A stretch of DNA of 29,762 nt, from IMG/VR virus record IMGVR_UViG_3300028025_004660, positions 1 through 29,762 of that record, one strand, 5' to 3'. Within the stretch, counting starts at the first letter, position 1; every line of letters starts with the position of its first letter. The stretch comes from a virus. Below the pieces are notes generated by a model. The model saw nothing but the letters and a program-made list of their open reading frames with translations. It was not told the origin of the DNA and did no database searches. The position numbers were made by a program, and so were the translations under genes. Of the stretch, positions 645 to 18,400 are shown piece after piece.

Positions 645-848
645 ATGGCGACGTATGACTACGCATGCAAAGAGTGTAAAGTAGTGGTGGAGATCGTTCA
701 CCCAATGTCCGATGAGTCGGAGCATCTCTGCCCGCGTTGCGAAAAAGCTATGCGCAAAATCATTTCCCTCAGCGGCGTCGTGTTCAAGGGAGAGGGTTGG
801 TCCAAGATCGACCGCAGGGGCACAGGCACCGACATTTATCTTGACTAA
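645..848 (+). CDS. FmdB-family zinc-ribbon protein
   Basis: 67 aa starting MATYDYACKEC. FmdB/Zn-ribbon_8 proteins typically start M-[PA]-x-Y-[ED]-Y-x-C-x-x-C, and that agreement decides the start; an in-frame GTG at 630 would add five residues and spoil it. Two CxxC knuckles (residues 8-11 and 30-33, CKEC and CPRC) would bind one zinc. The C-terminal part has the family's GVVFKGxG signature (GVVFKGEGW). The family is widespread and was first named as a putative formamidase regulator, but its true role is unclear; phage copies may regulate transcription or act as protein adaptors. It ends just before a strong hairpin and seems to have its own promoter. Family assignment is firm, function is not. 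Confidence 0.85.
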   Translation: MATYDYACKECKVVVEIVHPMSDESEHLCPRCEKAMRKIISLSGVVFKGEGWSKIDRRGTGTDIYLD

Positions 849-903: not shown

Positions 904-1113
904 TTAACGCTTAAACCAGGACCCGACCTTCCCAAGAAGGGACTTCTTTTCAACCTTTGGGGCCACAACGGCCTTCTTGGCAGGAGCCTTCTTCACCGGC
1001 TTTGCAGCTGCCTTAACGGCAGGCTTCGCAGCTGGCTTAGCGGCAACCTTCGCAGCAGGCTTTGCAGCCGGCTTAACTGGGGCCTTTGGGGCCACCTTGT
1101 TATTCTTGACCAT
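904..1113 (-). CDS. Histone H1-like Ala/Lys/Pro-rich basic protein
   Basis: 69 aa, made mainly of imperfect repeats of the type KPAAK/KPAVK/KKAPAKKA, strongly basic and like the C-terminal tail of histone H1 or bacterial H1-like/Hup tails. A distinct C-terminal segment (SLLGKVGSWFKR) could form an amphipathic helix. The start ATG (1111-1113) follows an AAGGAGG ribosome site at 1120-1126 in the leftward strand with 6-base spacing. It is the last gene of the leftward block and appears to have its own extended -10 promoter. Likely roles are binding nucleic acid or anionic surfaces. The amphipathic end next to lysis genes also allows a membrane-active role, but nothing proves it. Low complexity makes database matches unreliable. 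Confidence 0.7.
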   Translation of the reverse strand: MVKNNKVAPKAPVKPAAKPAAKVAAKPAAKPAVKAAAKPVKKAPAKKAVVAPKVEKKSLLGKVGSWFKR

Positions 1114-1164: not shown

Positions 1165-1560
1165 TTACTTTGCGGCTTCGTCTTCCCATGCGGTCTCGCC
1201 AGCAAGGCTGCCAGCAAGCTCATCAGGGATGCCATCGCCGTCAGTGTCAATGGCGGAGCCGGCAATGTGGGAGGTATCCGCAAGGGCGGCCTTCTCCTCA
1301 GCCTTTGCGGCCTTTGCCTTGCCGACACCAAACTTCGTGTCCTCTGGGTTGAGGGCGCGGACGATCACCTGGAGGGTTGCCGCAATGGCACCCGAAGCAA
1401 CCGTTCGGAAGTCGTCGTTGGTCATGTCGAGGATTGGTGCACCGGTGGCAAGCATAACGGCGATACCCGTTGCAAGGCCAACGCGGAACGCTTCGAGAAG
1501 CGCCTCGTCAATGCCCGTGTTGTCAAAAATCCACTTAATCTTTGAAAAAATTGCGCTCAT
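1165..1560 (-). CDS. Holin-like protein with a C-terminal calcium-loop motif
   Basis: 131 aa. I chose the ATG at 1558-1560 (MSAIFSKIKW) because a GGAGGT site at 1566-1571 lies 5 bases upstream; the longer frame to 1611 lacks this. Two hydrophobic segments follow an acidic N-terminal helix: about residues 26-45 (FRVGLATGIAVMLATGAPIL) and 53-72 (FRTVASGAIAATLQVIVRAL), separated by a DMTNDD turn. This arrangement is common in actinophage holins. An Ala/Lys/Glu-rich helix comes next, then DTDGDGIPDEL, a DxDxDG loop like those of thrombospondin type-3 repeats and dockerins. It starts 14 bases after the endolysin stop, which supports the lysis role. Holin is inferred from size, topology and place; no family was confirmed. 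Confidence 0.6.
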   Translation of the reverse strand: MSAIFSKIKWIFDNTGIDEALLEAFRVGLATGIAVMLATGAPILDMTNDDFRTVASGAIAATLQVIVRALNPEDTKFGVGKAKAAKAEEKAALADTSHIAGSAIDTDGDGIPDELAGSLAGETAWEDEAAK

Positions 1561-1574: not shown

Positions 1575-2312
1575 TTACTTCTTGATGCCAGTACCGCCGC
1601 AGGCAGGGCACGGAACCGGGACAACCGGAACTGGCGCTGGGGCTGGGGTTGGTGCTGGGGTTGGTGCAGGCGCAGCAGCCACAACGGTGCCCGCCTCAAT
1701 AATGATCGTGTGCTTGAATGCTGGGGCAACGTGCTTCTTTGAGAGGCGCTTGCTGTCGCAAAGCTTCAGCAGGGTCTCCTCGCTGATTCGCACGCCGAAC
1801 TGCTCCTTGCCCTTGCCGGATCGCGTTGGGCATGCCCACTGCCATCCAAGCTCTGGGTCCCACACTGCGGCAGTCATGTGGCCATACGTGCGGGTAGGTT
1901 GCTTTTGCTTGACCCACCACCAACGCTTCCACTTTTCATGCCACTCGGACACTTCAAGGTCCTTTGGGTAGCCAAACGGCTGCTCAACCCAAACGCCAAT
2001 AGCCGCGCCCTTCTTGGCGCTGGTGATGACGTCGTTCCAGTCCTTGGCCCAGCGCGCCTTTGCGCCAAGCTGACGTGCCGTAAGAATGAGGTCGCCAAGG
2101 GTAGAGCCGTTGTCGCTCACGCCCTGCTTGTCAATCTTGCCTGTTGCCTTGGTCTTGGCCGCAATGCCCTGTGCCGCAGAGAAATCTCCACCCGGGGCGT
2201 ACTTGTTTACCCAAGAAACGCATGCTGCAACTGACGATGGGCCGCAATCATCAAGAATGCCGCCCTTCTCTTCGTGGTCAAGCTGTGACTTAACCCTAAA
2301 CTGAACTCCCAT
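1575..2312 (-). CDS. Putative endolysin, C39-like cysteine peptidase with Pro/Ala linker and Cys tail
   Basis: 245 aa. The start (MGVQFRVKSQL) follows a GGAGGT site with 4-base spacing. The N-terminal domain has DCGPSSVAACVSW (about residues 22-34), the hallmark of C39-like/papain-fold peptidases with the catalytic Cys in DCGP, and a later YGHMTAAVW (about 144-152) that supplies the His; a downstream Asp (WDPELGW) may complete the triad. Actinophage lysins often carry such a peptidase, which would cut peptidoglycan cross-links. A Pro/Ala/Thr-rich linker (about 215-233) leads to CPACGGTGIKK at the extreme C-terminus, a CxxCxGxG knuckle like one repeat of the DnaJ zinc finger. No glycosidase or known wall-binding domain is present, so the tail may replace it. 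The next gene is the holin-like one. Endolysin is well supported by context and fold; substrate is inferred. Confidence 0.75.
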   Translation of the reverse strand: MGVQFRVKSQLDHEEKGGILDDCGPSSVAACVSWVNKYAPGGDFSAAQGIAAKTKATGKIDKQGVSDNGSTLGDLILTARQLGAKARWAKDWNDVITSAKKGAAIGVWVEQPFGYPKDLEVSEWHEKWKRWWWVKQKQPTRTYGHMTAAVWDPELGWQWACPTRSGKGKEQFGVRISEETLLKLCDSKRLSKKHVAPAFKHTIIIEAGTVVAAAPAPTPAPTPAPAPVPVVPVPCPACGGTGIKK

Positions 2313-2375: not shown

Positions 2376-5300
2376 TTATTCACGCCCTTCGAGTTCTGCG
2401 ATTCGGGCTTCAAGCTCATCAATGCGAGACCGAAGCTTACGCATGGCGGAGTGCAGAGGCACACCTAGGCGGCTGTATTGAATAGCCTCTGGCGTTCCAT
2501 CTTCGTTGAACACAGTAAAGTCTCTACCGTCAAAGTTTCCCGCCATATCCTCTGCAAGGAACCCGTATTGGCGGGGAGAGGTCTCATCATGTTCTTCGTA
2601 ATGTGCCTTGTCGTGGTAGGCCACTGGCCGAACGTCAAGGATTGCGTCTGAGTCATCCATGTATACAATGTTTGTCTTGTACCGCTCCGACGAAGAGTCT
2701 TGGAACACGCGCCATTGCGCAAGCCCTCCACCTGTTCCAAAGAAAATGCGCACGTCCCGCGAGTTAGTAATGTTCGATGTCGCGGAAAGGCTTGTAGCAG
2801 AAACATTTGAGTTGAGGTCAATGGCACCAGAAAGCTCTGCGCCCGAAGTTGTTGTAATGCTAGTAAATGATGGCGTTGTGTCGGCAGTTAATGTAACTGC
2901 CGCGCCCGCAGCGCCGGACCCGCTAACGGAAATAAGTGAGTTTGCCGAGGTAACTGTGGCAACATAGTTACCAGTTGTGTCGGTCCCAAGGGTAATGCCT
3001 GAAAGCGTTGTTCCAGTGTGGCTGTGGCTATCGTTGTTAACCGCAACGCTCAGGCTGTTTGCTGCACCAACAGTTATTGCTGTCGCCGCCAGGGTCAAGT
3101 CGCCAGTAAGCGCCAAAGTGGTGCCGCTATGCGCATGGTTTCCCGCAGCGGCCTGTGTTGCACTTGTGCCGATTGTGTGGTGCAAAGAGGCTGTTGCAAC
3201 GTCAGTGTCTGGTGCGTTGTGCGACTCTGCTTGGGTATGAGTATGGCCAACGGTGCTCACGGCGGTCCCGTTTTGAGTAATTGTTGAGGATGCGGCAAGC
3301 GCCCCAGAGACGGTTAGGGAGTTACTGTTGTCCGAAGTCTGATAAATAGAAACCGGAGTGTTTGTTCCAAAGTTTAGACCGTTTGCTCCAAGCTGAACAA
3401 TGTCGCGAGCGGTAGCGGAGGACCCGCGAAGGCGCATTTTTCCGCCAGCAGCCGCGTCGATCTGAACGCCCATCCCCTCAACAACGGCTGGGGAGTTAAC
3501 AGTTCCCGGGGTGTAAGACCGGATAACCGAGCCCTCTTCGACAAGGGCTCCGTCAACAAAAATAATTTTTCCGTTTGTAAAGTTTGTGCACTCTACTGCT
3601 GGACGAATAACAGAATTTCCACCACTGCTAAATGTAACCGACATTCTTCTCCAGCCAATGCCTGTTGCTGGGTCCTGGTCAACGGCCAAGAAAGATGTGT
3701 GCGAATCAGAGGTAACAAGTAAATCAGCAGCCGATAGAGCCGCGTTTGACCCGGAGCCCTGGAATACTTTTAGCTTGATAATTCCAGTAGTTCCAACTCC
3801 GGCATCGCCGTTGTCGTAAACATAGCAAGAAAAAGTGTAAACAGTGTCTGGGCTAACCGGAACACCATCACCGGGGGAATTGCGATAGGCGCTAATTGAC
3901 CCCGATGCAGTGATACCAGGGCTTGAATTGACGGTAAATTTTGCAGCCCTGGTTCCAAATCTTTTGTGCGAAGGGCTTAGCGCAAGTGTGTGGGCGCCAT
4001 CCGTGGTGTCAATTGCCCATCCGTCTGGTTGCGTTGTGGAGGAATTCCAAGATGCATCAAGGCCAGAAACTGATGGGGCTCCCGTTGCATTTGCGTTTTG
4101 CGCAAGCCTTACCAGAACCCACATGTACTGATTGCCTGCTGGCGTTGCTGCGGTAAGCGAAGAGTACCAAACCGTCGGAACAACCGTAGAGGAAGAACTT
4201 GACGCGTACAGGCGAACAGCCTGAGCTCCGCCAGTAGCTGAGTTAATAGTTGTTTGGTGTTCGGCGGTGCTTGCGTATGAAGCGCCAAGGTCAAAGTAGT
4301 ATGCTTCCTGGCCCCAGCGGACTTTAAATGGATATCTAGTGGTAGCGGTGCTCGTCAAGTTTGCTGTGCTAGTTACCTCGACGTGCCACCAGTACTGAGT
4401 ACCGCCGACAAGACCATTGTACCCGCTTGCCCATAGGCCGCCGTTGTCATCAAGGCCACCACCAGGGCAATACTCGGCAACTACTTCACCTGCTGCGCCA
4501 GAGTTACGCCTTGGAACGTTTAGAGATGTTGCGGTTTGAAAACCGGAAGCCGTAACGGTCCCGGAATCAAAGATGGTAGACCCGCCAGTAGAGTTGTCAT
4601 AAATTCGAACCCGCCAAGACTTTTGATTGCCACCACCGTTAGCAACGTAAGACCAGGCAAGAACCGGAAGCGCTGTTTTGCTTGTCTCGCTCCAAGTAAG
4701 TTCTGTGTCGCCAAGGTTGTAAATTGACGCGACTTCACCAGTAGTTGTTGGTTCTGATGGAGTTGCAGTTGGCGCAGTCGTAGAGTCATAAGTGAGAACA
4801 ATGAAGGCCCCCGCATAGGAGGAGCCGCCGTTGATTGCACTGTCTTCTTTTGTTCGGAACTCAACGCCACCGCCGTTAGCTGATGTTTCGTTTACCATTT
4901 TCAGTGTAATGCCATGGTTCGCAGAGCCGCTGCCGCCAGTTACAGTAACTGGTGCCCAAGATCGAACAATGTCCGTAACATCCAGTGCGTAAACGTCGCC
5001 CAGGTCCGGGGTTGCGTTTGGAATTTGCGCAGTAGTAATACGCTTAAATCCTGTAGAGGTGTAAGCAGGCTTGTTTGCCCAGGTAACAGCGTTTGTGCTA
5101 TACCAAACCCCATCTGCGCCCCTAGTCCCCTCAGACCAAGCAGATGTGTTGCGGTAAATGTCCATACCGCTACCCATTTCCCAGATTGTATTGTTTTGAC
5201 CAGGGCGATTATATGCCTGCACGTAAAGCGTTGCGCTGGTAATGGCGGTTACGCCAGAAAAGTCTAGGTTGAACTCCATAAGGCCGCGCATCAGCCAACC

Positions 5301-5417
5301 GGTACTGCTGATATAACCAACCGCGACGTTGTCCCCTGCGCCCTGGCCAAGGTTTTGGCCCGAGCTGGTATAAACCACTGAAGCGTCCTTAGAAATAGTA
5401 AAGTTTTTAGTAGCCAT
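2376..5417 (-). CDS. Tail fibre / receptor-binding protein with S74 self-cleaving chaperone
   Basis: 1013 aa. Residues 1-200 look like a DNRLRE-type beta domain (start FTISKDASVVYTS, later MRGLMEFNLDFS and SATLYV). A fibronectin-like stretch follows (about 240-370), then a carbohydrate-binding-like jelly roll (about 460-635, from PDGWAID to VRSYTPGT). Between about 720 and 805 there are H-x-H motifs (GHTHT, GNHAHSG, DSHSHTG) like the metal-binding shafts of trimeric fibres. The C-terminus is the intramolecular chaperone of Peptidase_S74: SSSERYKTNI at 908-917, with Ser909 and Lys914 as the likely dyad, then ILDVRPVAY and QYGFLAED, ending in a heptad coiled coil (LRSRIDELEARIAELE). The chaperone should fold the trimer and then cut itself off. 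The ATG overlaps the previous gene by 11 bases without a clear ribosome site, which points to coupled translation. Confidence 0.85.
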   Translation of the reverse strand: MATKNFTISKDASVVYTSSGQNLGQGAGDNVAVGYISSTGWLMRGLMEFNLDFSGVTAITSATLYVQAYNRPGQNNTIWEMGSGMDIYRNTSAWSEGTRGADGVWYSTNAVTWANKPAYTSTGFKRITTAQIPNATPDLGDVYALDVTDIVRSWAPVTVTGGSGSANHGITLKMVNETSANGGGVEFRTKEDSAINGGSSYAGAFIVLTYDSTTAPTATPSEPTTTGEVASIYNLGDTELTWSETSKTALPVLAWSYVANGGGNQKSWRVRIYDNSTGGSTIFDSGTVTASGFQTATSLNVPRRNSGAAGEVVAEYCPGGGLDDNGGLWASGYNGLVGGTQYWWHVEVTSTANLTSTATTRYPFKVRWGQEAYYFDLGASYASTAEHQTTINSATGGAQAVRLYASSSSSTVVPTVWYSSLTAATPAGNQYMWVLVRLAQNANATGAPSVSGLDASWNSSTTQPDGWAIDTTDGAHTLALSPSHKRFGTRAAKFTVNSSPGITASGSISAYRNSPGDGVPVSPDTVYTFSCYVYDNGDAGVGTTGIIKLKVFQGSGSNAALSAADLLVTSDSHTSFLAVDQDPATGIGWRRMSVTFSSGGNSVIRPAVECTNFTNGKIIFVDGALVEEGSVIRSYTPGTVNSPAVVEGMGVQIDAAAGGKMRLRGSSATARDIVQLGANGLNFGTNTPVSIYQTSDNSNSLTVSGALAASSTITQNGTAVSTVGHTHTQAESHNAPDTDVATASLHHTIGTSATQAAAGNHAHSGTTLALTGDLTLAATAITVGAANSLSVAVNNDSHSHTGTTLSGITLGTDTTGNYVATVTSANSLISVSGSGAAGAAVTLTADTTPSFTSITTTSGAELSGAIDLNSNVSATSLSATSNITNSRDVRIFFGTGGGLAQWRVFQDSSSERYKTNIVYMDDSDAILDVRPVAYHDKAHYEEHDETSPRQYGFLAEDMAGNFDGRDFTVFNEDGTPEAIQYSRLGVPLHSAMRKLRSRIDELEARIAELEGRE

Positions 5418-7485
5418 AATTGCTTAGCACCATTGTAAATCCTGTTGTTGTATTTCCTGTTTCTGTAATATTGAACGTTGTCCCGACCCCTGCGGTGTTG
5501 TTTGGAGTTCCGTTTGCTCCCAGTGAAAATGGAGCAAACTCAAAAGAGGAGTTTGGGATTAAATTAGAACCGCCAGGAAGTGCGCCAAATCTAATGGTGC
5601 TTGCATTAATCCCCTCTGCGGTAATGGCGTTTAGTGTTTCGCCATCAGCGCCAAGAATTTGAATTTGACTACCGTTAATATATAGCCTGTTGGAGTTTGT
5701 GATGTCTCCATCAGAAATCTGCAAGCCGTCCTCATTCCATTGAGCAGCTACTCCGTTAAGATCGCTAGTCAAAACCTGAAAGGATTGAAGCCGGCCGTTG
5801 GTTGTGCCAAACCTAATGCGACCATCCATTCGCAAGGAGTCAACGCTTAAATCGGTAATGGTTGCATTATTTGCAAGGATAGATCCGTCCAAGTTAACCC
5901 TAAATGGGGCCTGCTCAATGTCGGCGTTTCCTATCCACATTCCTTGCTCGTCGTCAATATAGAAAACGTTGTTGCCGGTGGTCACTCCGTCCTGATTGGT
6001 AATTTCGGCGGAGTTACCAATCTGCAGCCGCCCGCCGTTTGCAAGATAAATAGACGAGCTATACAGCTGGGTAGCGCCAATAGTCCATCCGCCGATACTG
6101 CCAGCGGCTGCCTGAATAGTTCCGCTAATGTTAGCGTTGCTTGCCACCAGATTGCCGTCAAGGTCAACAGAGAACTCAGCGGAGTTTGGATTAGCGTTAC
6201 CGGCCCAGATTCCTTGGAACGCAGGGCTAACGTTGGTGCCGACGCGAACAATCTGGTTTGGATCAATGTCGCCACCCACGGTGATCTCGTCCGCCGTGAC
6301 CGTGCCAATGTCAATAAAGGAGCCGCCAGCGGTTACGCCCAGCAAGATTGTGCCGTCTGGCTTGCGGATAACAATGCTGTCGTTCAACACCTGGAAGACT
6401 GGCTCTCCGCCGTCTTGGGTCTTAGCGGTGCGGATGTTCAATGAGGCAGAAGTCAAGTCGCCGTTTGACGTGACGGAGTACGCCTTGCGCACGCGGATTG
6501 CCACGGGGGCGTCAATGGACGGCAGGGAATCAGAAGAAATTTGCGCACCAAAATCAAGGTTAAAACGGTGGCGGAATACAAACTGCCTAGTTGACGGAAC
6601 GCTAACAATGTACCAGACGCCCGAGTAGACAGGGCCACACGAAGCAAGCTCAGCGTAATCGCCAACGACAAGGTCGTGCTCTTTTACCGTTGTGACAAAT
6701 ACAGAATATATCCCTGCAGGGTTGGGTCCAGAGATTCTTTGCGCATCAATAGAGAGAACCTGGTTTGCTCTGGACATTGTTGGTATGTACTGTTGCGTTT
6801 GTGCAACCAAACTAGATTCCAAAAGGCTTTTTCCGGTATCGCCAACCGTGTAGGTAACGCCAGTTCCTACGGTATCGACCGCAACAATCTCCCCATAGCC
6901 AAGCGGGCCATCATTCTGGTCAATAATTCCAACGTTAGCGTTTTGCCCAATAGATCGGGTAAGGTTGTCTGGGTCACCAAAATAGGCGCCAGTAACGCGG
7001 ACGTAATCGCCAACTTCAAACATTGCGCTTGCCCCAACGGTAGCCGTAGTGGTGCCAGACTCGTAGGTTCCCCATGGGGCAAACTCTGCGTAGACCGTGT
7101 TCTCCGAGACCGTTGACCAGTCTTGCAGGTAGACGTAGCCACCCGTAAAGCCCTGCTGCGCCTCAATGGCATCAAAATCAGAGCCGTAAGAGCGACTGTT
7201 CCAAGAGGCAATGGTTTGTATTTGCCCCGTGCGCATAAGGTTGGCATCAAGGACGCCTGTTTTAATGTACGAAGCATTAATCGTTGCGCTGTTTGGCCCC
7301 ACAGACATAATGGAAGATCCTGGGGGGACGATGTTTCCCGAGGAGTCCTGCGTTGTGGAGGGGTTGACAATACTTATGTTTGGGCCGTCAATTGAAAATC
7401 CTGAAACTGATTGCCCCGCAGCCGCAACGGGATCGCTGCGAAACTTTGTTCTCCTCTTATCTCCAGATCTTCTTTTTATTGCCAT
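5407..7485 (-). CDS. Tail-tip / fibre-base protein with duplicated beta module
   Basis: 692 aa. The start at 7485 (MAIKRRSGDKRRTKF) has a GGGAG site about 9 bases upstream and lies one base after the hub gene's stop; an alternative start at 7524 would lie inside the hub gene. A short basic N-terminus leads to beta-rich modules. One near residue 269 (KEHDLVVGDYAEL) is the same H-x-x-x-x-G-D module that recurs in the hub protein. A second unit occurs twice: QGIWAGNA...FSVDLDGNLVASNANI and QGMWIGNA...FRVNLDGSILANNATI, with SIGGWTIG between. The C-terminus starts what looks like a carbohydrate-binding module (NLIPNSSFEF) but stops about 50 residues later, which is short for that fold. Location between hub and fibre suggests it joins the fibre to the tip. 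No enzyme motif was seen. Confidence 0.65.
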   Translation of the reverse strand: MAIKRRSGDKRRTKFRSDPVAAAGQSVSGFSIDGPNISIVNPSTTQDSSGNIVPPGSSIMSVGPNSATINASYIKTGVLDANLMRTGQIQTIASWNSRSYGSDFDAIEAQQGFTGGYVYLQDWSTVSENTVYAEFAPWGTYESGTTTATVGASAMFEVGDYVRVTGAYFGDPDNLTRSIGQNANVGIIDQNDGPLGYGEIVAVDTVGTGVTYTVGDTGKSLLESSLVAQTQQYIPTMSRANQVLSIDAQRISGPNPAGIYSVFVTTVKEHDLVVGDYAELASCGPVYSGVWYIVSVPSTRQFVFRHRFNLDFGAQISSDSLPSIDAPVAIRVRKAYSVTSNGDLTSASLNIRTAKTQDGGEPVFQVLNDSIVIRKPDGTILLGVTAGGSFIDIGTVTADEITVGGDIDPNQIVRVGTNVSPAFQGIWAGNANPNSAEFSVDLDGNLVASNANISGTIQAAAGSIGGWTIGATQLYSSSIYLANGGRLQIGNSAEITNQDGVTTGNNVFYIDDEQGMWIGNADIEQAPFRVNLDGSILANNATITDLSVDSLRMDGRIRFGTTNGRLQSFQVLTSDLNGVAAQWNEDGLQISDGDITNSNRLYINGSQIQILGADGETLNAITAEGINASTIRFGALPGGSNLIPNSSFEFAPFSLGANGTPNNTAGVGTTFNITETGNTTTGFTMVLSNYGY

Positions 7486-7486
7486 A

Positions 7487-10400
7487 TTAAAGTACTCCCT
7501 TGCCACCAATAGTGATGGCGTCATCAGCCATTGGGTATTGTACCCACTCCGAGTAAGTATCTACTTTTGTCTGCCCCGCCCCAGTTCTTGAAATAGCGCG
7601 AATGCGGAATTGATAGTCTTGATCAACGTTTTCATTTCCAATGGTATCCGATGGGTCCACGGCAAGCTTAGACGGGTCCCACGCCGCCCGGGTGGCCGCG
7701 CCGCTGACCGACAACGTCTTGCTGGTATCTGTTAGCCATGGCCCAAAGCTTCCTTTTTGTTCCTTTTTGTACGAAACGGTAAATGCTGCAGTGAGTGCTT
7801 TATTGAGATAATACCCCGCAGGAGTGCTTACAAACGTCTCTTCGGTCGCCTCGTTTGTTTCTGGCGGAGTCATAACGTAATACTTAAATCCTACCACAAG
7901 TGTTTCATTTGCGTCACCGTATATCAAACTGTGAACTCTGAATGTACCATTAAAGCTTATGCCGCTAGGAGTAATTTTGTTTTTTGCGCTATTTTCCGGA
8001 ACCCCTGTAATCTTTACAGGATTCCCAATCTCAATGCCTGCAAATTTACCATACATTGAAACAAGAGTTTGCGGCTCTCCGTTGGAAGCAGACCAAGCCA
8101 CCGTTTTTCCCTTTCTTTCTGTAGTTCCTATTTGCTTCTTGCTTAATGTTACTAAGGCGCGTGAGCGCTTACGAACCTGGACCTGGAAGCCGCCAACCTC
8201 CACTCCCTTAGTTGTTGCATCGCCAAATGGGTACGACCAAGTAAGGTCAAACACTGTGTCAATAGTGCTGGCAAAACCGTCAGGGTCTTTTGCTTCAACA
8301 TTAAATCTTTGTGGTGCTGGTGGCCTTTCGGAAGCGGGCGCGGCAGATGCAAGATCCACCGATATGGTTCGCCTTCCAATTAGCACAAGCGCATTCTTTT
8401 GATAGTCTGGCTCTTGCTGCAGGGTAACCGTGTGATACATTTCTGGGCCAATTAGCTTGGTGCTCTGGCTCTTTACGATCATTGGCTCCCAAATGTCAAC
8501 TTCTGACCAGAAGTATGGAACCACAGAACCGGGGGTGAGAAGGCCGGGTAGGCCGTTGTTTGGATGTTCAAATTGATAACTTGCAGAAGATTGACCACTT
8601 TCGCTAAAGAACGCACTTGCTTTTCCAGAAACTTCTTTCAAAGTTCTTGCCGCCTCCTCTGCCTTGCTACCCTCAACAATCTTTCCGTGAGAGTTCCACA
8701 CGCCCTGAACGTGGTCAAATGTATATTCCATCAGCTCTTGATTAGAGGAAATGGCAGTAGTTGTTATCCCGTTTTCGTCAGAGTCTGGGATAGTGGTGTA
8801 CAAATACAGCCTGTTTGCCGAGGCGCCAGCGCTGCGGATATTGTCAGGGGCCTCGAACGGGTAGGTTGCTATTGGCAAATCCGCGCTAGTGTCACCGTTG
8901 TTGAGCAGCAATACGTTGGGGCTGTAGTTTCCTTCGTCGGCAAAACCAAATTCGCCAGTTAGCTTAACGGCACGAATGTCTGTCCAGTAGTGTGTTTCAG
9001 AGGTGGCCCCAGAAAGGGCAAGAAGGCCTACGGTGAACTTAGAGCTACCGACTGGAATTTGAACAATCTTCCATATCTTTCGCCATTCGTTGTTATTGCA
9101 CCAGCCGTCATATAGGTCTTCGTAGCTAGTGGAGTATCCTGCGCCAACTGTGTTTGTCGCTGAAGAGTAAAAATGCACGCGGACTGCCATGCGCGTAACG
9201 TCAGAAGATTTTACATATGCGGAAACAAAAAACTTGTCACCAGCCGCAAGAGTTTCTTCTGACGGACCAATATTAATAAAGTCTGAATAGACTGACGTTG
9301 CGGAAGTTCCAGACGCCTCCATTGCATATCCATATCCCCACGGTCCTGCGGTCCGATCAAATTCAAGAGCGAGATTTTTTTTCAAGGTATGACCCACAGC
9401 AGTGCCGTTCCATCTTTTAACACTGCCAGTTCCGCGATCATTCTCAAACATGGGGTTTTTCACCAGGTTTGTTGTGCTAATTTTTCGGTATTCTAATTCT
9501 TTATTCTTGTTAACCCAGAACTGCGCCCCGCTGGCTTTTGAAATGTAGTCAAGAACCTGTCGCAGTGTTCTACCGCCAAATTGCGTGTCTTTTACTTGCG
9601 ACGCTTCAGACAAACGTTGATTTGGGACATTGTTAATGTCCCTGTAGTCTGGCTCATAGTCCGGGTCAATCAGCGAAGCGAGGCCGTACTTGTGCAATAG
9701 CCAGGAGCGTAGCAGCTCGGATTCTGGCTTTGGGCTTGTTGCTGGCAGTCGATCAAACCCAATAATTTCTGCAATGTACCCATCAAATGGCTCTTCGTAT
9801 GTGCTAACAGATTTAATTCCTGCCCCTACGACAACAGTTCCCGGTCCATAGCCAAGGGTGTCTAGGCTGCTGTGATCAATCTCCAGTCCGCTGACCTGAT
9901 ACAGAGCACCGCTTACCGCCGTGCCGCTTTCGTCAAAATTTTTGTAGGCAGTTATAGATGCCGTTCTGTACACGGAATCGACGTCAACTACGAATTGCAA
10001 AACGCACTCTTCTTCGTCCTCGATGGTAATGTCGTCAATTGAATATTTTGTAAATGTGGCAGTGTTGCCTACGCACAACTCAACAAACGGATGGTTAGAT
10101 GAGTTTATGCCAAATGCCATGTACGTAGATTTATCTCCGCGTTGCAGTATCTTCATGTCAGACGTGGTGGTATTTGGCCTAAGAACGAATGTCCACCATT
10201 GGTGGTAATCAAGGCTTGGACTAAAAAAACCCTCAACAGCATTGTGCTTAAATGATGGGTACGCTGTATCTGTTCGCAGGAGACTCCATTTACTCTTTAC
10301 AAAGTTTAGCCCCTTTCTCCCGCCCACAAAAACATCTGGGTTTCTAGGCATGGTTGGCCGCGTCGGACCGGGAACGTATGCCGCCCTAGTTTGCACCGTG

Positions 10401-13400
10401 CAATCCGCCGCAGTGGAAACAGTTGCGCTCCCACTTATAAACTTAAACGTATTACTCCCCGTAACAGTCATTTGCAATTCTTCATCGGCAATTGCGCTAA
10501 CGTTAATTGCACTTCCGCCATTGGGCGTAAACACAATTTCGGGCTGTCGATCACCAAGGTTGTGCGGCTCATCGGTTGTAACGTAGTAATGCCCAAGACT
10601 TGATGTGTAAGATCCGTTTTTTACTTTAGCAAGGTACTCGTAGTAATACATTTGAGCAAAAGCGCCACCGTTGCCTTTTGGTATTTTTAAATCGTTAACG
10701 TAGTTTTTTTCTGAAGTGCCATCTGTTGCTGTTTGTTTAAAAGGAGAATCAATATTTATCTTAGACCAATCCGAAGTGGATGTTGAGCTTGGTCTTATTC
10801 CCCTAAAAAATGCTTTCAGGTTTGTAGCAAAAGCTGTTTTAATTTTTTCTTTAAACGTTATTGTTGCACCGGCGTTTACAAATACTTTTCCAGCAGCAAG
10901 TATTCCCGAGACGGGGAACTGTGTCTCAAACACAAACTTCCTTGCACTAACTCTGGAAGCGCCAGAAAGGTTATTGTTATTCATCAGGCTTCCCAATGTT
11001 CCCTTAAGGGCAAACCCAAGGCTAGGGAAATCAAGCTCCGCGCAGTCTTCTGATAGCTCAACCTCAAAAGCGTCCTTGTCCGTTGTTGGATTGGTACAGC
11101 GGATAGACTTAATCTTGTACGAACCGTCTCCTACAGAAATGCCAAATACATTGCCCGCAGTTCCAACAATGGTGATTTTCTTTTTTGCGCTCGTTGGAGA
11201 AATGTTATTAAAGTTCCATTGCCCATTTAGAACCATGGACCCAATTGAAGAGAAGTACACCGTGTCCCCGGCTTTTCTTTTATGCTTTTTTGTTGTGGTA
11301 AATCTAAACACGCCATTGAGGTAGCTCCAATGACTAATTGGCACATTGCTAAGATTGGCAATACCTTTGTTTTCCGGGTTTGGCTCAGCGACCTCATAAT
11401 CTTGCGAGTCCTTTGTTTGCGTGTCTACGTACTCAATAACGTCGGCACTAACAACAGATCCTGGGCGAACAGCGTATGCCCCAACCTCTGATGCGGCGGG
11501 GGCGTCTTGCTTCCATTGAATGTATCGGTCGCCAACTGCCCTGCCGCGCAAATCATCGTGCTCATCATGCTCTTTCACCGCACCAGAATTTATCAATGTG
11601 CGGATACCGGCAAACTTGTTTTCATATCCAGACTCGGCAGAGCTAATGTCCAGGTATACAGATCGGCCCTGCATAAACGCGCTTTCAAGCTCCGCGCCTA
11701 ATGACTCGGCAAAATACAACGTCACCAAGCCGTTTGCTTCCCACCAGATCGACATGGCATTCTCTGCGTGAGTTACGCCACGGTGCTTAATCCCGCCAAT
11801 TCTCCTTGGGAAACTTGTGTCAAAGATTGAACCGCCAACGCCGCTAACGGTAATAGCCTCATTTTCAACCATACCTTCGCCCACCCTAGACATAACAATA
11901 CCTAGGGCAGAAGAAGTTTCGGCGCCAAAATTACCAACATTTTTATCAATAATCATGTCAAACGGCGTCCCAGCAGATGTTAGCGATCCTGTTGAGTCCG
12001 CTCCAACAACAAATTCCCGAGCGCTAACAACTTGCAGGATAGTGGCAATGCCGCCTTCTGATTCCAATTCCTCAATGACGTCAAGCGGGACAATGTCGAT
12101 CAAAGAGGCCGGGTTTCTAACAAACCCGTGGCTATCAGTTGTTGTAATTTGCAAAACGTCGCGTTTAAAATTTGCATCAAAATATCTTGTTAGACTAGAT
12201 GCCGTTGTTCGGGCTGGGACTTCCCCAAGCACCAAAGTTCCGCTTGCAACCCCGACGTCTGCACCCGTGCTTACAACAACGGTATCCTTAGTAACAAGAG
12301 TCACCTCAGCGTTTGTGCAATAAACATTTCCGGGAATAGAAACTTTATCCCCCAGCGCAAACGGGTGGGCGGCGGCGGTGAACGTTGTTTTTAGGGTTCC
12401 CGCGCTATAAGATTGGGCGGTGAATGCGCAGAGGTAACCAGAAGCTGCTCGGCATCCAGTGAGAGACCCAAGACTTGGGTTATACGGCCTATGGATAGTA
12501 AATGTGTTGTTTGTTTTATCAACAATTTTTTCTCTGTAGATGATAGGGTTAGTGCCACCGCTGCTTTGATAAATGTTTACATACTCTCCAACTGAAAAAG
12601 GATGCGTTGCGGATGTAATGGTTAGCCTCTTTGTTGAGCTATTCCATGTTGGAGTTCCGGATACCGCAGCGCTTGCTGACCTAAAAATAGTATTGTTTGA
12701 GTACGATGCCAGAGTAATGGTCTTTCCGCTTACGGCAACAACGGAATAGAGGGCAGAAAGAGGGGGTATTAAACCAAGTATCCGGACAACCTGATTTGTT
12801 GAAAACGAGTCGGCTTCTACATTAAGCGTTATCTTGATTTGCTTATCGTCAACAATTTCGTATGCAACAATGACTTCTGCAATGACAACAGTAAGCTCGG
12901 CAACGCCGCTCTGCTTTCGGGCGTGGATAATTCGGTATCGGTTTGACCTGGTGCCAAGAGACTTTTCGCTCTCCTCAAAAGTTGTTGCGCTGCTCGGAGT
13001 TTCTCGATTAGGGAATATCTGCATTCCAGGGTCTTCTGAGCCGACGCCAATGCTAATGCTGCTAAATGACTTGGTGGCGTCTTCAAGCTTTGAAGAAACT
13101 TCCTCAACAACAAACTCATTGTCAAGCCCACCTTCGTATTGTTGGCTTTCTGTAATATCGTAATTATTTATTTTAATTGTTTCTCCAATTCTTATGGCGT
13201 GGTGCCTGCTGGTGTAGAGCTTCAGCCTTCCAGTTTGCTCGTTGTGAACTGGAAGCAAAACAACTTCTGCCGTTCCGCCAGCCGCCATGTCAAACGTCGC
13301 GTTTTCTGGTTCAATAGTTGCCCGTATTTCAGTTGCGCTTGTATTTTCATTGGCGGTGAATGTTTTAAACGCTGGACTTGCGCCGCTAGTAATGCCTTCT

Positions 13401-15433
13401 ATTTTCTTCAAATAGAATTTATCTCCCTCAGCGCAATCGTTAAAAGCGGTAATAATAAGCTCTCCTGCCTCAATGTAAACAGGCAAAACAAGCGACTTCT
13501 GCAAGAGGTGCTGCTTTGGGGAGCCCTGGTTAATGACCACTTTTGGCATGTGCTTAACGTTGCTAGTGTTTGTTGAAACAATAGGGTCGTAAGCATAAGA
13601 GTTTAAAGTTGGCGAAAGCTCCGCAACAAAATCTGCAACTGTTGTAATTCGATCAATAGCGTCACTGTCCTCGTAGGCTTTTGCTGGGTAACCAGGCAGC
13701 CATTGCCGAAGGATGGGGTTGTAGCGCACGTTTTCTACGTGGTCAACGTTGTCTACATAGTTGATTCCGAGACCGTCGTAGTCTTCGTTGTATGGGTCCG
13801 TGGATCGAATAGATTCAAAGATAGAAGTAGTAATTGCTTGAATTTCAAGAGGGTATTCCTCATCGTAATACAGCAAACGCGCCTCTGCCTCTCCGCCAGA
13901 GCTTGCATACAGGACCTGAAAATTGTTTGCGTCCGCAACGTCTGAAACTGTTCCTGTGTACCAAGTTCCATCGGCGGTCGCAACGGCACTAAAGCCACCA
14001 GTCCAGGGTGCAAGCTGATTATAAGTTTCGGGAGATATTAATACGACATCCGCGCCAGAGAGGCCATGTGGTGTAGCCGTTGTAAATGTAGCCTTATCTG
14101 TGCTCTCTTTCTTGCGGACGGGATCATATCCAGAAGCAAGGAATGGGGAAACAATATTTGCGTTAGTAAACGGGGTGGAGGCGGTTGCGGATGGAGTCGC
14201 TACGCGGTGAACAAAGAAAAACTTGCGAGAGTTTTCAATGATGTCAACAATGTATTTTGTGTTTGCAAGTTTAGCGATGCCGTTCCATAGGCTTGTATCC
14301 GTATGCGATTGATTGTTTACCTTGAACGCCTGCCCAACCTGCAGCTGGTGGTCTTCCGCGCTGTCAACTACGACCTCATGATTCCACAGCTTGAACTGCT
14401 GGCCATTCGCAATCATGGCACCAGCATTTACGGAATTGCACACCTGATAGTAAATTCCAGAAGAGTTTGTGCCCTCCCAAAGCCCAACAACTTGATACTC
14501 ATAGCCGCTGCTGCTGTATTTAAATCTTTCGTTACGGCGGATTCCGTGAGTGGTTGTGGTTTCGGCTTTTTGCACTCCGTTCTTTGAATTATATGAGACC
14601 TGGGTGAACGTGTGCAAGGCAACATCGGGCGTGCTAATAGAGATTCTATTGACGCCTATTCTTCCCGCTTCATACAGCTCGCCACCAACAATCATCTCCC
14701 AGCCGTAGGTATCCTGCGGCACGCGGTAGCGGTCAATAACGCGCTCGTCAAGCAGGGCCGTATAGTCCGCACACGTGACCTGCTGCAGGATTACCCCGCC
14801 AGCGCGCTTCTCCTCAACAGACATCATGATGCCGCCGAAGAGCAGTTCGGTTACCTGCTCATACAGAGCAGCAGAGTTTGTCCCAGAAACAACGGCGGTC
14901 TGAGAGATGGTTCTGGACGTGGCCTCTGCGTAGCTAATAGTCGTGCTGGTAACGGCGGTAATCGTTCGTTGACCGCCAAGCATTAAGGGGTCTGGCGAGC
15001 GCGCTGTGTCCCCAGCCAGGGTAACCACCAAAGAGTCGCCCACGATAAGCGTGTGGGACTGATCGAGCGTAAGCGTTACCGTAGTGCCGCTTTGGCTGTA
15101 GTGTGTGACGGCGTAGTACTTAGATAGGTCGCCATACGACTGAGATATCTTTATCTCGCTGCGTAGCGGGATCTCAAACCTAAACGTTGGGTCTAGCAGC
15201 GCTTCGGCAATCGACTCAGCTTCAGTTGCGGCGTACTCGTTCCAGCGCTTGCCAGAAAAGGGAAATAGCGTATACAGGCCAATGTCCGCATTGGCGGTTG
15301 ATCCGTCGGCACTTGATGTAAATTCAAAAGCGTTGGCGTCTACGCGACCCGTGACGTCGTAAAACGCCAACGGGTCGGTAGCACCTTCAAACCTGGGCTG
15401 TATTTCTACTTTCAGGTCTTTTGTTATATTCAT
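7487..15433 (-). CDS. Giant tail hub / tip protein with lectin-like and carbohydrate-binding inserts
   Basis: 2648 aa. The ATG at 15433 shares its A with the TGA of the tape measure gene, with GAGG about 8 bases upstream; a TTG one codon earlier is less likely. Residues 1-250 look like the first hub half (DYTALLDERVIDRYRVP). About 120-1650 holds many copies of a beta module with H-x-x-x-x-G-[DE]. About 1700-1920 is a LamG/concanavalin-like domain (WWTFVLRP ... DGYIAEIIGFDR ... LRSWLLHKYGL). At about 1955-1983 LRQVLDYISKASGAQFWVNK resembles the second half of gp27-type hubs. About 1990-2160 is a carbohydrate-binding-like domain starting NPMFEND, and about 2205-2345 returns to hub-like sequence (PEMYHTVTLQQEPDY). 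The C-terminus (from about 2368) is fibronectin-like. It likely closes the tail tube and binds cell-surface glycans. Domain edges are approximate. Confidence 0.7.
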   Translation of the reverse strand: MNITKDLKVEIQPRFEGATDPLAFYDVTGRVDANAFEFTSSADGSTANADIGLYTLFPFSGKRWNEYAATEAESIAEALLDPTFRFEIPLRSEIKISQSYGDLSKYYAVTHYSQSGTTVTLTLDQSHTLIVGDSLVVTLAGDTARSPDPLMLGGQRTITAVTSTTISYAEATSRTISQTAVVSGTNSAALYEQVTELLFGGIMMSVEEKRAGGVILQQVTCADYTALLDERVIDRYRVPQDTYGWEMIVGGELYEAGRIGVNRISISTPDVALHTFTQVSYNSKNGVQKAETTTTHGIRRNERFKYSSSGYEYQVVGLWEGTNSSGIYYQVCNSVNAGAMIANGQQFKLWNHEVVVDSAEDHQLQVGQAFKVNNQSHTDTSLWNGIAKLANTKYIVDIIENSRKFFFVHRVATPSATASTPFTNANIVSPFLASGYDPVRKKESTDKATFTTATPHGLSGADVVLISPETYNQLAPWTGGFSAVATADGTWYTGTVSDVADANNFQVLYASSGGEAEARLLYYDEEYPLEIQAITTSIFESIRSTDPYNEDYDGLGINYVDNVDHVENVRYNPILRQWLPGYPAKAYEDSDAIDRITTVADFVAELSPTLNSYAYDPIVSTNTSNVKHMPKVVINQGSPKQHLLQKSLVLPVYIEAGELIITAFNDCAEGDKFYLKKIEGITSGASPAFKTFTANENTSATEIRATIEPENATFDMAAGGTAEVVLLPVHNEQTGRLKLYTSRHHAIRIGETIKINNYDITESQQYEGGLDNEFVVEEVSSKLEDATKSFSSISIGVGSEDPGMQIFPNRETPSSATTFEESEKSLGTRSNRYRIIHARKQSGVAELTVVIAEVIVAYEIVDDKQIKITLNVEADSFSTNQVVRILGLIPPLSALYSVVAVSGKTITLASYSNNTIFRSASAAVSGTPTWNSSTKRLTITSATHPFSVGEYVNIYQSSGGTNPIIYREKIVDKTNNTFTIHRPYNPSLGSLTGCRAASGYLCAFTAQSYSAGTLKTTFTAAAHPFALGDKVSIPGNVYCTNAEVTLVTKDTVVVSTGADVGVASGTLVLGEVPARTTASSLTRYFDANFKRDVLQITTTDSHGFVRNPASLIDIVPLDVIEELESEGGIATILQVVSAREFVVGADSTGSLTSAGTPFDMIIDKNVGNFGAETSSALGIVMSRVGEGMVENEAITVSGVGGSIFDTSFPRRIGGIKHRGVTHAENAMSIWWEANGLVTLYFAESLGAELESAFMQGRSVYLDISSAESGYENKFAGIRTLINSGAVKEHDEHDDLRGRAVGDRYIQWKQDAPAASEVGAYAVRPGSVVSADVIEYVDTQTKDSQDYEVAEPNPENKGIANLSNVPISHWSYLNGVFRFTTTKKHKRKAGDTVYFSSIGSMVLNGQWNFNNISPTSAKKKITIVGTAGNVFGISVGDGSYKIKSIRCTNPTTDKDAFEVELSEDCAELDFPSLGFALKGTLGSLMNNNNLSGASRVSARKFVFETQFPVSGILAAGKVFVNAGATITFKEKIKTAFATNLKAFFRGIRPSSTSTSDWSKINIDSPFKQTATDGTSEKNYVNDLKIPKGNGGAFAQMYYYEYLAKVKNGSYTSSLGHYYVTTDEPHNLGDRQPEIVFTPNGGSAINVSAIADEELQMTVTGSNTFKFISGSATVSTAADCTVQTRAAYVPGPTRPTMPRNPDVFVGGRKGLNFVKSKWSLLRTDTAYPSFKHNAVEGFFSPSLDYHQWWTFVLRPNTTTSDMKILQRGDKSTYMAFGINSSNHPFVELCVGNTATFTKYSIDDITIEDEEECVLQFVVDVDSVYRTASITAYKNFDESGTAVSGALYQVSGLEIDHSSLDTLGYGPGTVVVGAGIKSVSTYEEPFDGYIAEIIGFDRLPATSPKPESELLRSWLLHKYGLASLIDPDYEPDYRDINNVPNQRLSEASQVKDTQFGGRTLRQVLDYISKASGAQFWVNKNKELEYRKISTTNLVKNPMFENDRGTGSVKRWNGTAVGHTLKKNLALEFDRTAGPWGYGYAMEASGTSATSVYSDFINIGPSEETLAAGDKFFVSAYVKSSDVTRMAVRVHFYSSATNTVGAGYSTSYEDLYDGWCNNNEWRKIWKIVQIPVGSSKFTVGLLALSGATSETHYWTDIRAVKLTGEFGFADEGNYSPNVLLLNNGDTSADLPIATYPFEAPDNIRSAGASANRLYLYTTIPDSDENGITTTAISSNQELMEYTFDHVQGVWNSHGKIVEGSKAEEAARTLKEVSGKASAFFSESGQSSASYQFEHPNNGLPGLLTPGSVVPYFWSEVDIWEPMIVKSQSTKLIGPEMYHTVTLQQEPDYQKNALVLIGRRTISVDLASAAPASERPPAPQRFNVEAKDPDGFASTIDTVFDLTWSYPFGDATTKGVEVGGFQVQVRKRSRALVTLSKKQIGTTERKGKTVAWSASNGEPQTLVSMYGKFAGIEIGNPVKITGVPENSAKNKITPSGISFNGTFRVHSLIYGDANETLVVGFKYYVMTPPETNEATEETFVSTPAGYYLNKALTAAFTVSYKKEQKGSFGPWLTDTSKTLSVSGAATRAAWDPSKLAVDPSDTIGNENVDQDYQFRIRAISRTGAGQTKVDTYSEWVQYPMADDAITIGGKGVL
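10400..15090 (-). repeat. About nine diverged copies of a beta module in the hub protein
   Basis: Protein-level repeats of about 60-80 residues with the core [ST]-x-x-H-x-[hydrophobic]-x-x-G-[DE]-x-[hydrophobic]: near residues 127 (SHTLIVGDSLVV), 362 (DHQLQVGQAFKV), 456 (PHGLSGADVVLI), 745 (HHAIRIGETIKI), 944 (THPFSVGEYVNI), 1023 (AHPFALGDKVSI), 1103 (SHGFVRNPASLI), 1385 (KHKRKAGDTVYF) and 1624 (PHNLGDRQPEIV). Each is followed by short strands ending in a T-[IF]-x-[hydrophobic] type strand. DNA identity between copies appears low. Confidence 0.55.
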
Positions 15434-18400
15434 CAACTTGGCCTCATGAAGCCTGCCGCACGGAGGGTGCGGACCTGTGCCGAACTTACCTTCTCGGCAA
15501 GTTTATCAATATCTGCGGCATCCGACACAACAGGGTTGTTAATGGTGACGGACGCATTGATTGTCGCGCCTCCGCCAGCCATTCGCAAGTCCCCTGGAGC
15601 CTGCAACGCCCGCAAGCCGGTATTTGGCAACATGTAGCCACTGCTGTCAGGGATCATGAGCTCTGGCCCACGCTCACCAACAAGGTATGGCATGTTCTTG
15701 CCAATTGACCCACCAAAGGCTCGCTGCTCTGGCAGGATTTTGGTAATATCTGGCATGTTCGGACCAGGGTTATATACACCATATTTTCCGCCGCCAACCA
15801 TTACGTTTGGCTTTGAGGCTGCAGCTGGATTTATAATATTAGTATAAATCGCGTCAGACAACGCGCCGCCAATTATGCCGCCTACAAATCCGCCAAGCCA
15901 CGGCATGCCAATTGGGGCAAGCGCCATGGACCCAAGGAATTCGCCAAGCAAAGAGCCAATCATGCCGACTCCGGCTCGGCCAACGTCGCCACCGCTAAGT
16001 AGCGTTGTAGCAAGACCAGCAATAACCGAAAGCTTGCCGCCAATCATTGGTATCGCGCCAAGCAAATCAAAGATTCTGTTAAAGATAAGTCTGCCGAAAT
16101 CCCACTGGCCAGATGCTGCCATTTGACCAATATCAGCAGCAAGAGAGGCAAAGACGTTGCCCTTCTTTGTGTTCATATTTTTGTCAAATACTTTTAGCCC
16201 AGCGCCTACTGCGCTAGATCCCGAGCTGGACCTATAGGTTGGCGTAAAGGAATCTGGCCGCTGTCCTCCAGCCACATCCCTATACGCAGCGTCTTTTCCG
16301 TCAACGGGGAAAGTTGACTTTCTGTTTATGCTGTCGTGAATGTTTTGCCATCCCTCTCTTACTGCTAAGATTTTAGAAGTTCCGGCAACGGCTCTTCTTT
16401 TTCTCCATTCCAGCAACTCTTTTTTATATTGTGCTTCTGGGTCATTTATTTGAACCTGATCCCATCCGGTTCCAGACTTGAATCTTGGTTCTTCCAGGCG
16501 GGGCTCGGAACCAAGAATGGATTCCCCAAGGGTTTCCCCATGCCTCCCCGGAGCTTGATCCAATACGTGATACTTAAATGAATCTGCGTAATTTTCTGCT
16601 GGCGAACCCATTCCATAGAAACTTACAGCAGGACTCTTTCCAGAAAACTCTGCCCAATTTAGAACATCTCCGCCCTGGTCCGCCGCCGACCGCACAAAAG
16701 CGTCCCTATTCAGGTCGGCAAGCCGGCCCTGAGTATTTACCGCAAGCCCGGGAAGTCGGAACACCCTTGCCAGCGCTAACGCTAGGGTTGGATTTTTCTT
16801 TTCAATTCTCTCTAGGATTCCCATAGGCAAGCCTATGCCGCCCTGTGTTCCAAGGCTCAACAAGCTAACAAGCGGAGAAAAGATTCCTTGCCCCCTGAGT
16901 AGCGGCGTCCCGTGTTTTCTTGAATGAACTAAATGGCCGGTTTCGTGGGCAATTGTTTCTAAATACCCGCTAGTGTTGGCATCTCCGCGCTTGTTAAAAT
17001 CCCATGATTGGCCCTGAGAGGTGGTCCCCTGAGGGCTAAGGTAAATGTGGTTTTTTCTTGGTCCGGTCGGGTATTTTACTCGACCCACTACCCCATCCCC
17101 TAAATCTGGCACAACAACGATTGTGACTCTTTTTGTTCTATCGCTTGGGTCAAACATGTCTTCTGGGGCCGATGCAAGCGATAGCCTTGCAGCTTCTGAT
17201 AGGGCTGCTAGGTCAACCGTCTGACCGGTCCTTGCGTAATCATCTGAGATAATTACGTCGCCCCAGTCAAAACGAATTTTATTTCCGCTTCCGCCAACCT
17301 TCCCACTGTTTGGACCAAGTTTGTTCCAAATTTTTTGAATAGGGTCTAGGTCGCCGAGGAAATGAACTCTTCCAGCGGGGATACCCTTAACAAGATTTTC
17401 GTCTGCGATTGGCGCGCCCCAGCTATCTATTCCGTGGCCACCCGTTGTGTCCGGAATTGGCGTCTCGGTTGGCTGTGGCCTATCCCAAGAATCCCATCCC
17501 CCAAGATATCCGCCATCGGCTCGACCCGTGACTGGGCTCCAACCTCTTGGACCGCCACTGCGAATCTTTCCTGCTACATAGCGAGCGTATTGCTTTGGGA
17601 ACCTACGGGCTAGTTCATTCTTCTGAGCTTTTGTGTTGCTTTGACTATTCATAAACTCGTTAAACGCGTACTGCTCAAAGCCTGTAGGATCGCCAATGAA
17701 GCCCAAGCTTCTAGTAAAGCTCTCTGACGGGCTGTCATAGTTCCAGGTGTCTCGGTTTGGACCGACGTAGCCGCCGCCAGCTCGACCAGTTACACCAACC
17801 AGGCCGCCGTAGTATCGTCCCCGCTTGCCCGCCTTAAGCGCGCCAGACGAAGACTGAATGCTACTTGGAAGCTCATGGTTTGGCGTGACATAGCCACCGC
17901 CGTCTGGGAACATTGTGAGCATTTCTGGCCCACGCTCCCCGACAAGATATTGACCGGCGCCAACTGGCCCACCCTTGGCGCGTTTTTCAATCAAAGTGCT
18001 CGTTAGATCGTAGAATCCCCATTCCACATCGCCAAGTGGATACCATGCTCCGGTACTTGCGCTGTGTCCAACTGGGTATGTCGTTGGCTTTGGCGGTCTC
18101 GTTCTGATTACTGGCTGCGTTGGGTCGGTTCGATCACGGCTATCACCGTAAGTCGGGTTAATTAGTTGCAATGGACCAAAGGTCTTGTAAATGTTATCCA
18201 TGACGCTGTAAATGCGGTCAAACTCTGTACCAAACTGAGCCCTTGTTAGGTACTCACCGTACTGGGAGAAGTTCATTTTGCTTAAATCGTCAATCAGCGA
18301 TACAAGGCTTGCCGATGCGGCGTTGGCCTTTTTGCCAGCTTCTGTGCCAAGAACACCCTCGCTAATTGAGTATGCATCAAGAGAGGCCCGAGACTTTATA

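Follow-up and report, generated by a model that had tools for sequence, protein, structure and literature searches.

A conserved terminal CxxCG tail on a putative C39/papain-like phage endolysin, with possible zinc-mediated dimerisation

Genomic context of the lysin gene

The analyzed window corresponds to the whole of a 29,762-base virus sequence (IMGVR_UViG_3300028025_004660). Along its minus strand, a very long tape-measure-like ORF (15433-29724, 4763 aa) is followed by further large ORFs (7487-15436, 5407-7524 and 2376-5417), then by the lysin gene and a holin-like gene. The end of the ORF at 2376-5417 matched Peptidase_S74 (Pfam, E = 1.3e-4) and a PHROG tail protein. Three HExxH motifs of zinc-metallopeptidase-like appearance (27403-27417, 24775-24789 and 16933-16947) were found within the tape-measure-like ORF.

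The lysin gene (1575-2312, minus strand) encodes a protein of 245 aa starting with MGVQFRVKSQ. A longer form of the ORF reaches position 2348 and opens with GTG, which is not common to the relatives; these begin at the equivalent of MGVQFRVKSQ, and the GTG is not likely to be the lysin start. The product comprises a catalytic domain with a papain/C39-like fold (residues 1-206; 1695-2312), which contains the invariant C23 (DDCGPSS) and H145 (YGHM), a Pro/Ala/Val-rich linker (residues 207-234; 1611-1694) with a pLDDT of about 50 in the structural model, and an 11-residue tail formed by the terminal C-x2-C-G knuckle CPACGGTGIKK (C235 and C238; 1578-1610). The minus-strand ORF reads ...APAPTPAPTPAPAPVPVVPVPCPACGGTGIKK up to its stop codon (1575-1577), so that the 245-residue protein terminates in VPVPCPACGGTGIKK; the codon of C235 lies at 1608-1610. 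A sequence-only reading of this DNA had pointed to the segment 1575-1640, which covers the tail and the last part of the linker, as a DnaJ-like CxxCxGxG knuckle at the end of an endolysin.

The holin-like gene (1165-1560, minus strand) encodes 131 aa with two hydrophobic stretches, no Cys, and a DTDGDGIPD loop near the C-terminus. No Pfam family was matched above cut-off by this protein, and its designation as a putative holin is based on these features and on the homology seen in fused relatives. It adjoins a 69-aa ORF of Lys/Ala/Pro repeats (904-1113, minus strand) terminating in SLLGKVGSWFKR, a cationic product that possibly has a lysis-related or DNA-binding role; a similar 61-aa ORF was present in L009, a close relative. 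Further along, an FmdB-like Zn_ribbon_8 protein (645-848, plus strand; E = 5.9e-11) belongs to a family represented in 12 of 18 related records.

Catalytic domain and structural similarity

Neither Pfam nor PHROG had a family matching the lysin of the window, NCBIfam and PADLOC yielded no name that could be used, and a sequence search of the PDB returned nothing useful. An AlphaFold2 monomer, built from a 35-row alignment, was mostly confident over residues 1-210 (blocks of 70-98), with pLDDT values of about 50 beyond residue 210 and a disordered end. Fold comparisons by Foldseek and VIA-align assigned a papain/C39-like fold to the model, the best structural match being the pseudomurein endoisopeptidase PeiR (8z4h; Z = 13.9, rmsd of 3.3 Å over 152 residues, within residues 2-208), followed at Z values of 10.8-11.7 by the peptidase domains of PCAT1 and ComA (10.8 for ComA) and by the B. 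anthracis C39-like protein 3erv (11.5). PeiR, whose title describes an endopeptidase acting on a wall polymer, has the same fold as the lysin but only 16% identity to it, and its Foldseek E value (1.2e-3) was the best obtained, with none below 1e-3. Peptidase_C39_2 (PF13529) matched just one of 35 family members, and weakly (E = 0.027). C23, in a DCGP context, and the later H145 were invariant in 102/102 aligned sequences, and we take them to be the catalytic Cys and His of the peptidase. Both the fold and this conserved pair bear out the earlier description of the enzyme as a Cys peptidase. Two BFVD models from uncultured Caudovirales phages were close to the lysin (47% and 60% identity), indicating that public databases already contain members of this unnamed family.

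The gene product is best read as an endolysin, its lytic activity being predicted from the fold, from the place of the gene between tail-type and holin-like genes, and from the holin-like fusion found in nine relatives. A single-domain C39/papain-like peptidoglycan peptidase with a presumed endolysin role is the best explanation of the protein. No C-terminal wall-binding domain was found with Pfam, PHROG or the model (pLDDT of about 50 after residue 210); the tail lies, as originally proposed, where lysins usually carry such a domain.

Relatives, end states and phylogeny

Relatives were collected from five viral-contig scans and from the window's own record, yielding 234 loci, several of which share one contig; the resulting 235 sequences (window included) collapsed to 105 distinct lysins. 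Among these, 43 ended in the knuckle (counting the window and the 5'-cut L097), 51 were bare, 9 were fused to a holin-like domain and 2 were cut off, frequencies that are not representative since the two largest scans contributed the best 80 of 315 and the best 80 of 446 candidate loci. Two scans of species genomes gave no relative, and the cultured-phage collection held no match for the lysin, for a 2649-aa tail-type protein or for the tail alone. Neither WhiB (18 records) nor TerL_ATPase (12 records) was detected. A freshwater source is a guess.

A quickly computed tree of the lysins, with 102 rows and stars on 23 of its 97 inner branches, required 7 changes among the three end states, compared to 39.6 with shuffled labels, and the starred branches force at least three such changes. 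The knuckle occurred in three places. The main knuckle clade comprised 38 sequences, with the bare L009 and L038 nested inside. L040 and L041 carried a knuckle within a bare group; their tail, CPACGGTGVKK, also occurs in the main clade, which makes recombination likely. L053 and L055, located within the fused group, had a sequence of their own, CSSCGCIIHP(T/S)(R/K), and this tail form looks like a separate origin. The tail is therefore gained and lost over evolution.

In the nine fused lysins (L049, L051, L052, L069, L083, L095, L096, L099 and L101; 9/105 distinct sequences), a single reading frame starts with the peptidase and ends with a homologue of the holin-like protein. The two parts are joined by a linker, P/A-rich in most cases, and by a small helix of partial conservation that mostly reads ALGxVDWxxVG; within 1.9 kb downstream, none of the nine was found to have a holin gene of its own. 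A natural holin-endolysin fusion has been described in Clostridium sporogenes, according to an excerpt of that report (PMC9527704); it likewise holds holin and endolysin in one chain, but in the reverse order, the endolysin following the holin there and the peptidase coming first in the fused relatives.

The DTDGDGIPD loop of the holin-like protein is EF-hand/TSP3-like (TSP3_bac, E = 0.054, below cut-off), and in some relatives a second copy of the loop is present, such as GWVDVDGDGIND. Considering relatives with a downstream holin and excluding L053-type lysins, a loop of this type was found in 39/40 knuckle rows, the lone miss (L026) being cut at a contig end, vs. 13/50 bare rows. A link between loop and knuckle was rejected, as only three independent contrasts on starred branches underlie this difference, with no significance.

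Conservation of the terminal tail

The element C-x-x-C-G was invariant in all 43 distinct tail-bearing sequences, window included, and was the last element in every one, with 1-7 residues following the Gly. Both cysteine codons and three glycine codons were used among these tails. The position after the first cysteine was occupied by P (34), S (8) or Q (1) and the next one by A (20), R (10), T (8) or S (5), and the net charge after the Gly was +1 or more in 42/43. The shortest tails were CPTCGK, CPACGK and CQACGK. The linker measured 16-43 residues, of which 50-71% were Pro+Ala. When mapped onto a tree built from just the catalytic domain (42 sequences, a single 5'-cut one being excluded), the C, C and G positions showed no amino-acid changes vs. 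2, 3 and 7 changes of codon. The residues lying between the cysteines changed 6 and 9 times at the amino-acid level, and tail length changed 10 times. Conservation extends to C-x2-C-G and an end that is basic in most cases, and the tail is real and under purifying selection on C/C/G. In the window and in L002, the Shine-Dalgarno-like GGAGG of the next gene sits past the lysin stop, so signals of that gene do not account for the tail; together with the conservation and the codon changes, this excludes a chance or frame artefact.

The terminal knuckle after a Pro/Ala linker was thus confirmed, CPACGGTG being a literal CxxCxGxG, whereas the suggested DnaJ-like kinship did not hold: the literal CxxCxGxG was present in 29/43 tails, GxG was missing in 14/43, and only CxxCG was conserved. 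A DnaJ-type zinc finger consists of four CxxCxGxG motifs with two zinc sites; the lysin has a single motif and no four-cysteine module. The Anti-TRAP profile gave weak matches in 7/35 members (best E = 0.014).

The earlier reading had held that absence of the tail from close relatives would speak against it. Leaving aside L039 and L233, whose records are cut before the tail, and the 5'-cut L097, distinct complete relatives were sorted by their catalytic-domain identity to the window: the tail was present in 30 of 31 at 80% or more, in 4/11 at 70-80% and in 7/59 below 70%. The close relative without it, L009 (88% identical), stops cleanly at the position expected for the beginning of the linker.

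The columns of C235 and C238 were occupied in 42/42 sequences, and no other cysteine column of the lysin tracked the tail (C31 in 14/42, C185 in 11/42). Each chain therefore offers one conserved CXXC, with no further Cys pair, and completion of a zinc site by another Cys of the same chain was rejected. The remark that a single knuckle cannot hold zinc alone in the usual way agrees with these two ligands per chain.

The L053-type tail differs from the others in that CSSCGCIIHPTR contains C-x2-C-x-C-x2-H, three Cys and one His, giving four possible ligands; it might hold zinc within a single chain and is no argument for a hook. The holin-like gene of this type lies upstream of the lysin, not downstream, and its product has no DTDGDGIPD-type loop. 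A thioredoxin gene directly adjoined the lysin only in this separate type: in L054 (6010-7049), where the lysin bears the L053-type tail, it starts 26 nt past the lysin stop. Overall, thioredoxins were found in 20/47 records, many of them fragments (11/25 with and 9/22 without the knuckle), at least 2 kb from the lysin in the 16 records other than the L053 type, and a link between thioredoxin and tail was discarded.

Short ParB-like proteins with a similar end

Similar ends were searched in ten records, of which three were covered in full and seven over their first 80,000 bases. Among 773 predicted ORFs with a homologue in another record, 26 had CxxCG in their last 35 residues; six were lysins and seven were a ParB_N protein of 151-172 aa, the other 13 having several CxxC, extra cysteines or being likely spurious (three of these, of 52, 54 and 95 aa, had a single CxxC). 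The ParB_N protein, present in this form in 7/10 records, bears a lone CPxCG with 8-25 residues after the second Cys; four were scanned against Pfam, giving ParB_N matches with E values between 3e-6 and 2e-5, of which a single one exceeded the curated cut-off. Such short proteins, with a lone CPxCG and a basic stretch, were located in L243 (7783-8292, minus strand), L252 (14467-14931, minus), L271 (12720-13175, plus), L277 (17951-18466, plus) and L280 (9248-9760, minus). No CPxCG-bearing ParB was present in the portions of G009, G010 and G016 covered. Longer ParB-like proteins without CPxCG are also found in these phages.

Five ParB-like homologues from cultured phages were translated, of which three had CPNCG near the end, one had CPNCA and one had neither. 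Those of Arthrobacter phages Martha and Zartrosa end in CPNCGHTFEPTTRSELA, that of Salinibacter phage B2_17 ends in CPNCGHEFTA, that of Abba has CPNCA, and the partial protein of Salgado has no such end. In Martha and Zartrosa, one gene separates the ParB-like gene from a Mom-like DNA modification gene. The ParB-like matches came mostly from actinobacteriophages (344 of 422 records named Mycobacterium, Gordonia, Arthrobacter or Microbacterium); that the host of the window's virus is actinobacterial is only a guess. The ParB-like CPxCG was present in 4/6 records with knuckle lysins and in 3/4 of the others, that is, with knuckle, bare and fused lysins alike, so the protein is unlikely to be a partner of the lysin.

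Possible roles of the tail

Since there is one Cys pair per chain and no other Cys that tracks the tail, a second chain is the simplest completion of a zinc site. Our tentative preference, held at somewhat less than an even chance, is a zinc-hook-like homodimer in which two CxxCG motifs would share one Zn(Cys)4, both the zinc and the dimer being what we infer by analogy. The flexible Pro/Ala arm would carry a minimal zinc half-site, made of C-x2-C-G and a short basic end, and two lysins would join tail to tail in the fashion of the Rad50 hook, without coiled coils. Two catalytic heads would be displayed on tethers of 16-43 residues, and the dimer might raise avidity for the wall polymer, or else form a cytosolic assembly able to leave only through the holin. 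The dimer tail would then stand in for a folded wall-binding domain as well as for the in-frame holin-like fusion.

A glycine following the second cysteine suits a metal knuckle, and rubredoxin-type knuckles read CPxCG. The invariant Gly and the Pro present in 34/43 tails consequently fit a metal knuckle better than a redox CxxC. The invariance of C, C and G in 43/43 tails, against a background of varying neighbours, linkers and tail lengths, is consistent with the homodimer, as are the recurrence of the tail in three places of the tree and the lone CPxCG of the unrelated ParB_N protein. On the other side, the AlphaFold2 monomer leaves the tail disordered, the lysins can do without the tail, as in 51 bare relatives that include one with 88% identity to the window, and the four-ligand L053-type tail might hold zinc in one chain.

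Precedents are offered by two known systems. Short CXXC peptides of Rad50 form intermolecular homodimers in which two chains share one Zn(II), and one CXXC per chain is common to Rad50 and the lysin, as far as the excerpt of the source goes (PMC9569753). The Rad50 motif, however, sits at the apex of a coiled coil, whereas that of the lysin is C-terminal on a Pro/Ala arm and its dimer hypothetical; in the strict sense, the tail is not a Rad50 hook. The endolysin CTP1L acts as an oligomer through its C-terminal domain, a state linked to its activity, while blocking one mode of dimerisation left the activity of the related CD27L undiminished, according to the part of the paper available (PMC4777826). 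In both, to judge from the same excerpt, the C-terminal part sets the oligomer state, as the tail would in the hypothetical lysin dimer, but this is achieved with a folded cell-wall-binding domain and an internal translation start instead of 11 residues (PMC4777826). The Rad50 peptides and CTP1L, as excerpted, together with the missing intrachain and holin Cys, are what favours the zinc-clipped homodimer.

A basic end with a free CxxC would suit docking to another molecule equally well, and an unlikely but not negligible alternative is that the half-site, with the basic end, would supply the missing part of a zinc site on some other molecule of phage or host (in the holin complex, the membrane or the wall) and so hold the lysin in place until it is released. 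That the enzyme needs to be attached to something is plausible given that relatives fuse the same catalytic domain to a holin-like protein (9/105) through a similar P/A-rich linker, and the net charge of +1 or more at the tail end in 42/43 would agree with it. Candidates for the partner have fared poorly: the window's holin-like protein has no Cys and was rejected, and the ParB-like CPxCG accompanies all lysin types.

Redox control, also put forward in the sequence-only reading, we consider improbable. The CxxC would be oxidised to a disulphide, either inside one tail or linking two lysins, upon leaving the reducing cytosol, or else it would shield the catalytic Cys; the fold of a Cys peptidase and the thioredoxin gene 26 nt past the L053-type lysin would be in line with this. 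In thioredoxin-like proteins, CxxC sits at a helix start within the thioredoxin fold, and an invariant Gly after the second Cys with variable intervening residues (here P/S/Q and A/R/T/S) is atypical; in the lysin model, the tail is a brief terminal stretch without ordered structure. Thioredoxins are widespread irrespective of the tail (about equal with and without it), and no positive evidence for redox control came from the window's clade. It is quite improbable that the tail is a weakly constrained decoration spread by recombination and contributing little beyond solubility or stability. The tailless L009 and L038, both lying within the main knuckle clade, and the main-clade-like tail of L040/L041 inside a bare group are what such spread would give, but no amino-acid changes vs. 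12 codon changes at C, C and G (42 sequences) are hard to square with neutrality. Least probable of all is an intramolecular lock, in which the tail would fold back onto C23/H145 and zinc would silence the peptidase in the cytosol until it reaches the zinc-poor surroundings beyond the membrane and becomes active. A flexible linker of 16-43 residues could plausibly reach C23 and H145, with which the tail would make a Cys3His site; against this, 51 bare relatives manage without a tail and linker length varies nearly threefold. The homodimer thus ranks ahead of docking, redox control, decoration and lock, in that order, each being conditional from zinc onward.

A broader reading, which we consider doubtful, is that a lone CPxCG, placed on a flexible arm at the C-terminus or close to it, is a minimal and portable zinc clip by which these phages make pairs of proteins as unlike as the endolysin and a DNA-associated ParB-like protein, and that in the lysin it is evolutionarily interchangeable with holin fusion. 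If so, lysins would be built as zinc-clipped dimers or as membrane-tethered chains, without a wall-binding domain.

C39-fold peptidases, oligomeric lysins, zinc hooks and holin-endolysin fusions are all known already. Among the matches listed from the open-licence PMC literature searched, no conserved lone CxxCG tail replacing the wall-binding domain of a lysin was recognised, and the oligomeric lysins known to us all use folded domains. Should the zinc-clipped homodimer be correct, the tail would be the smallest endolysin oligomerisation module that we know of, with 11 residues, or 6 as CPTCGK; lysin assembly would depend on zinc, and this would account for an environmental lysin family that does without a wall-binding domain.
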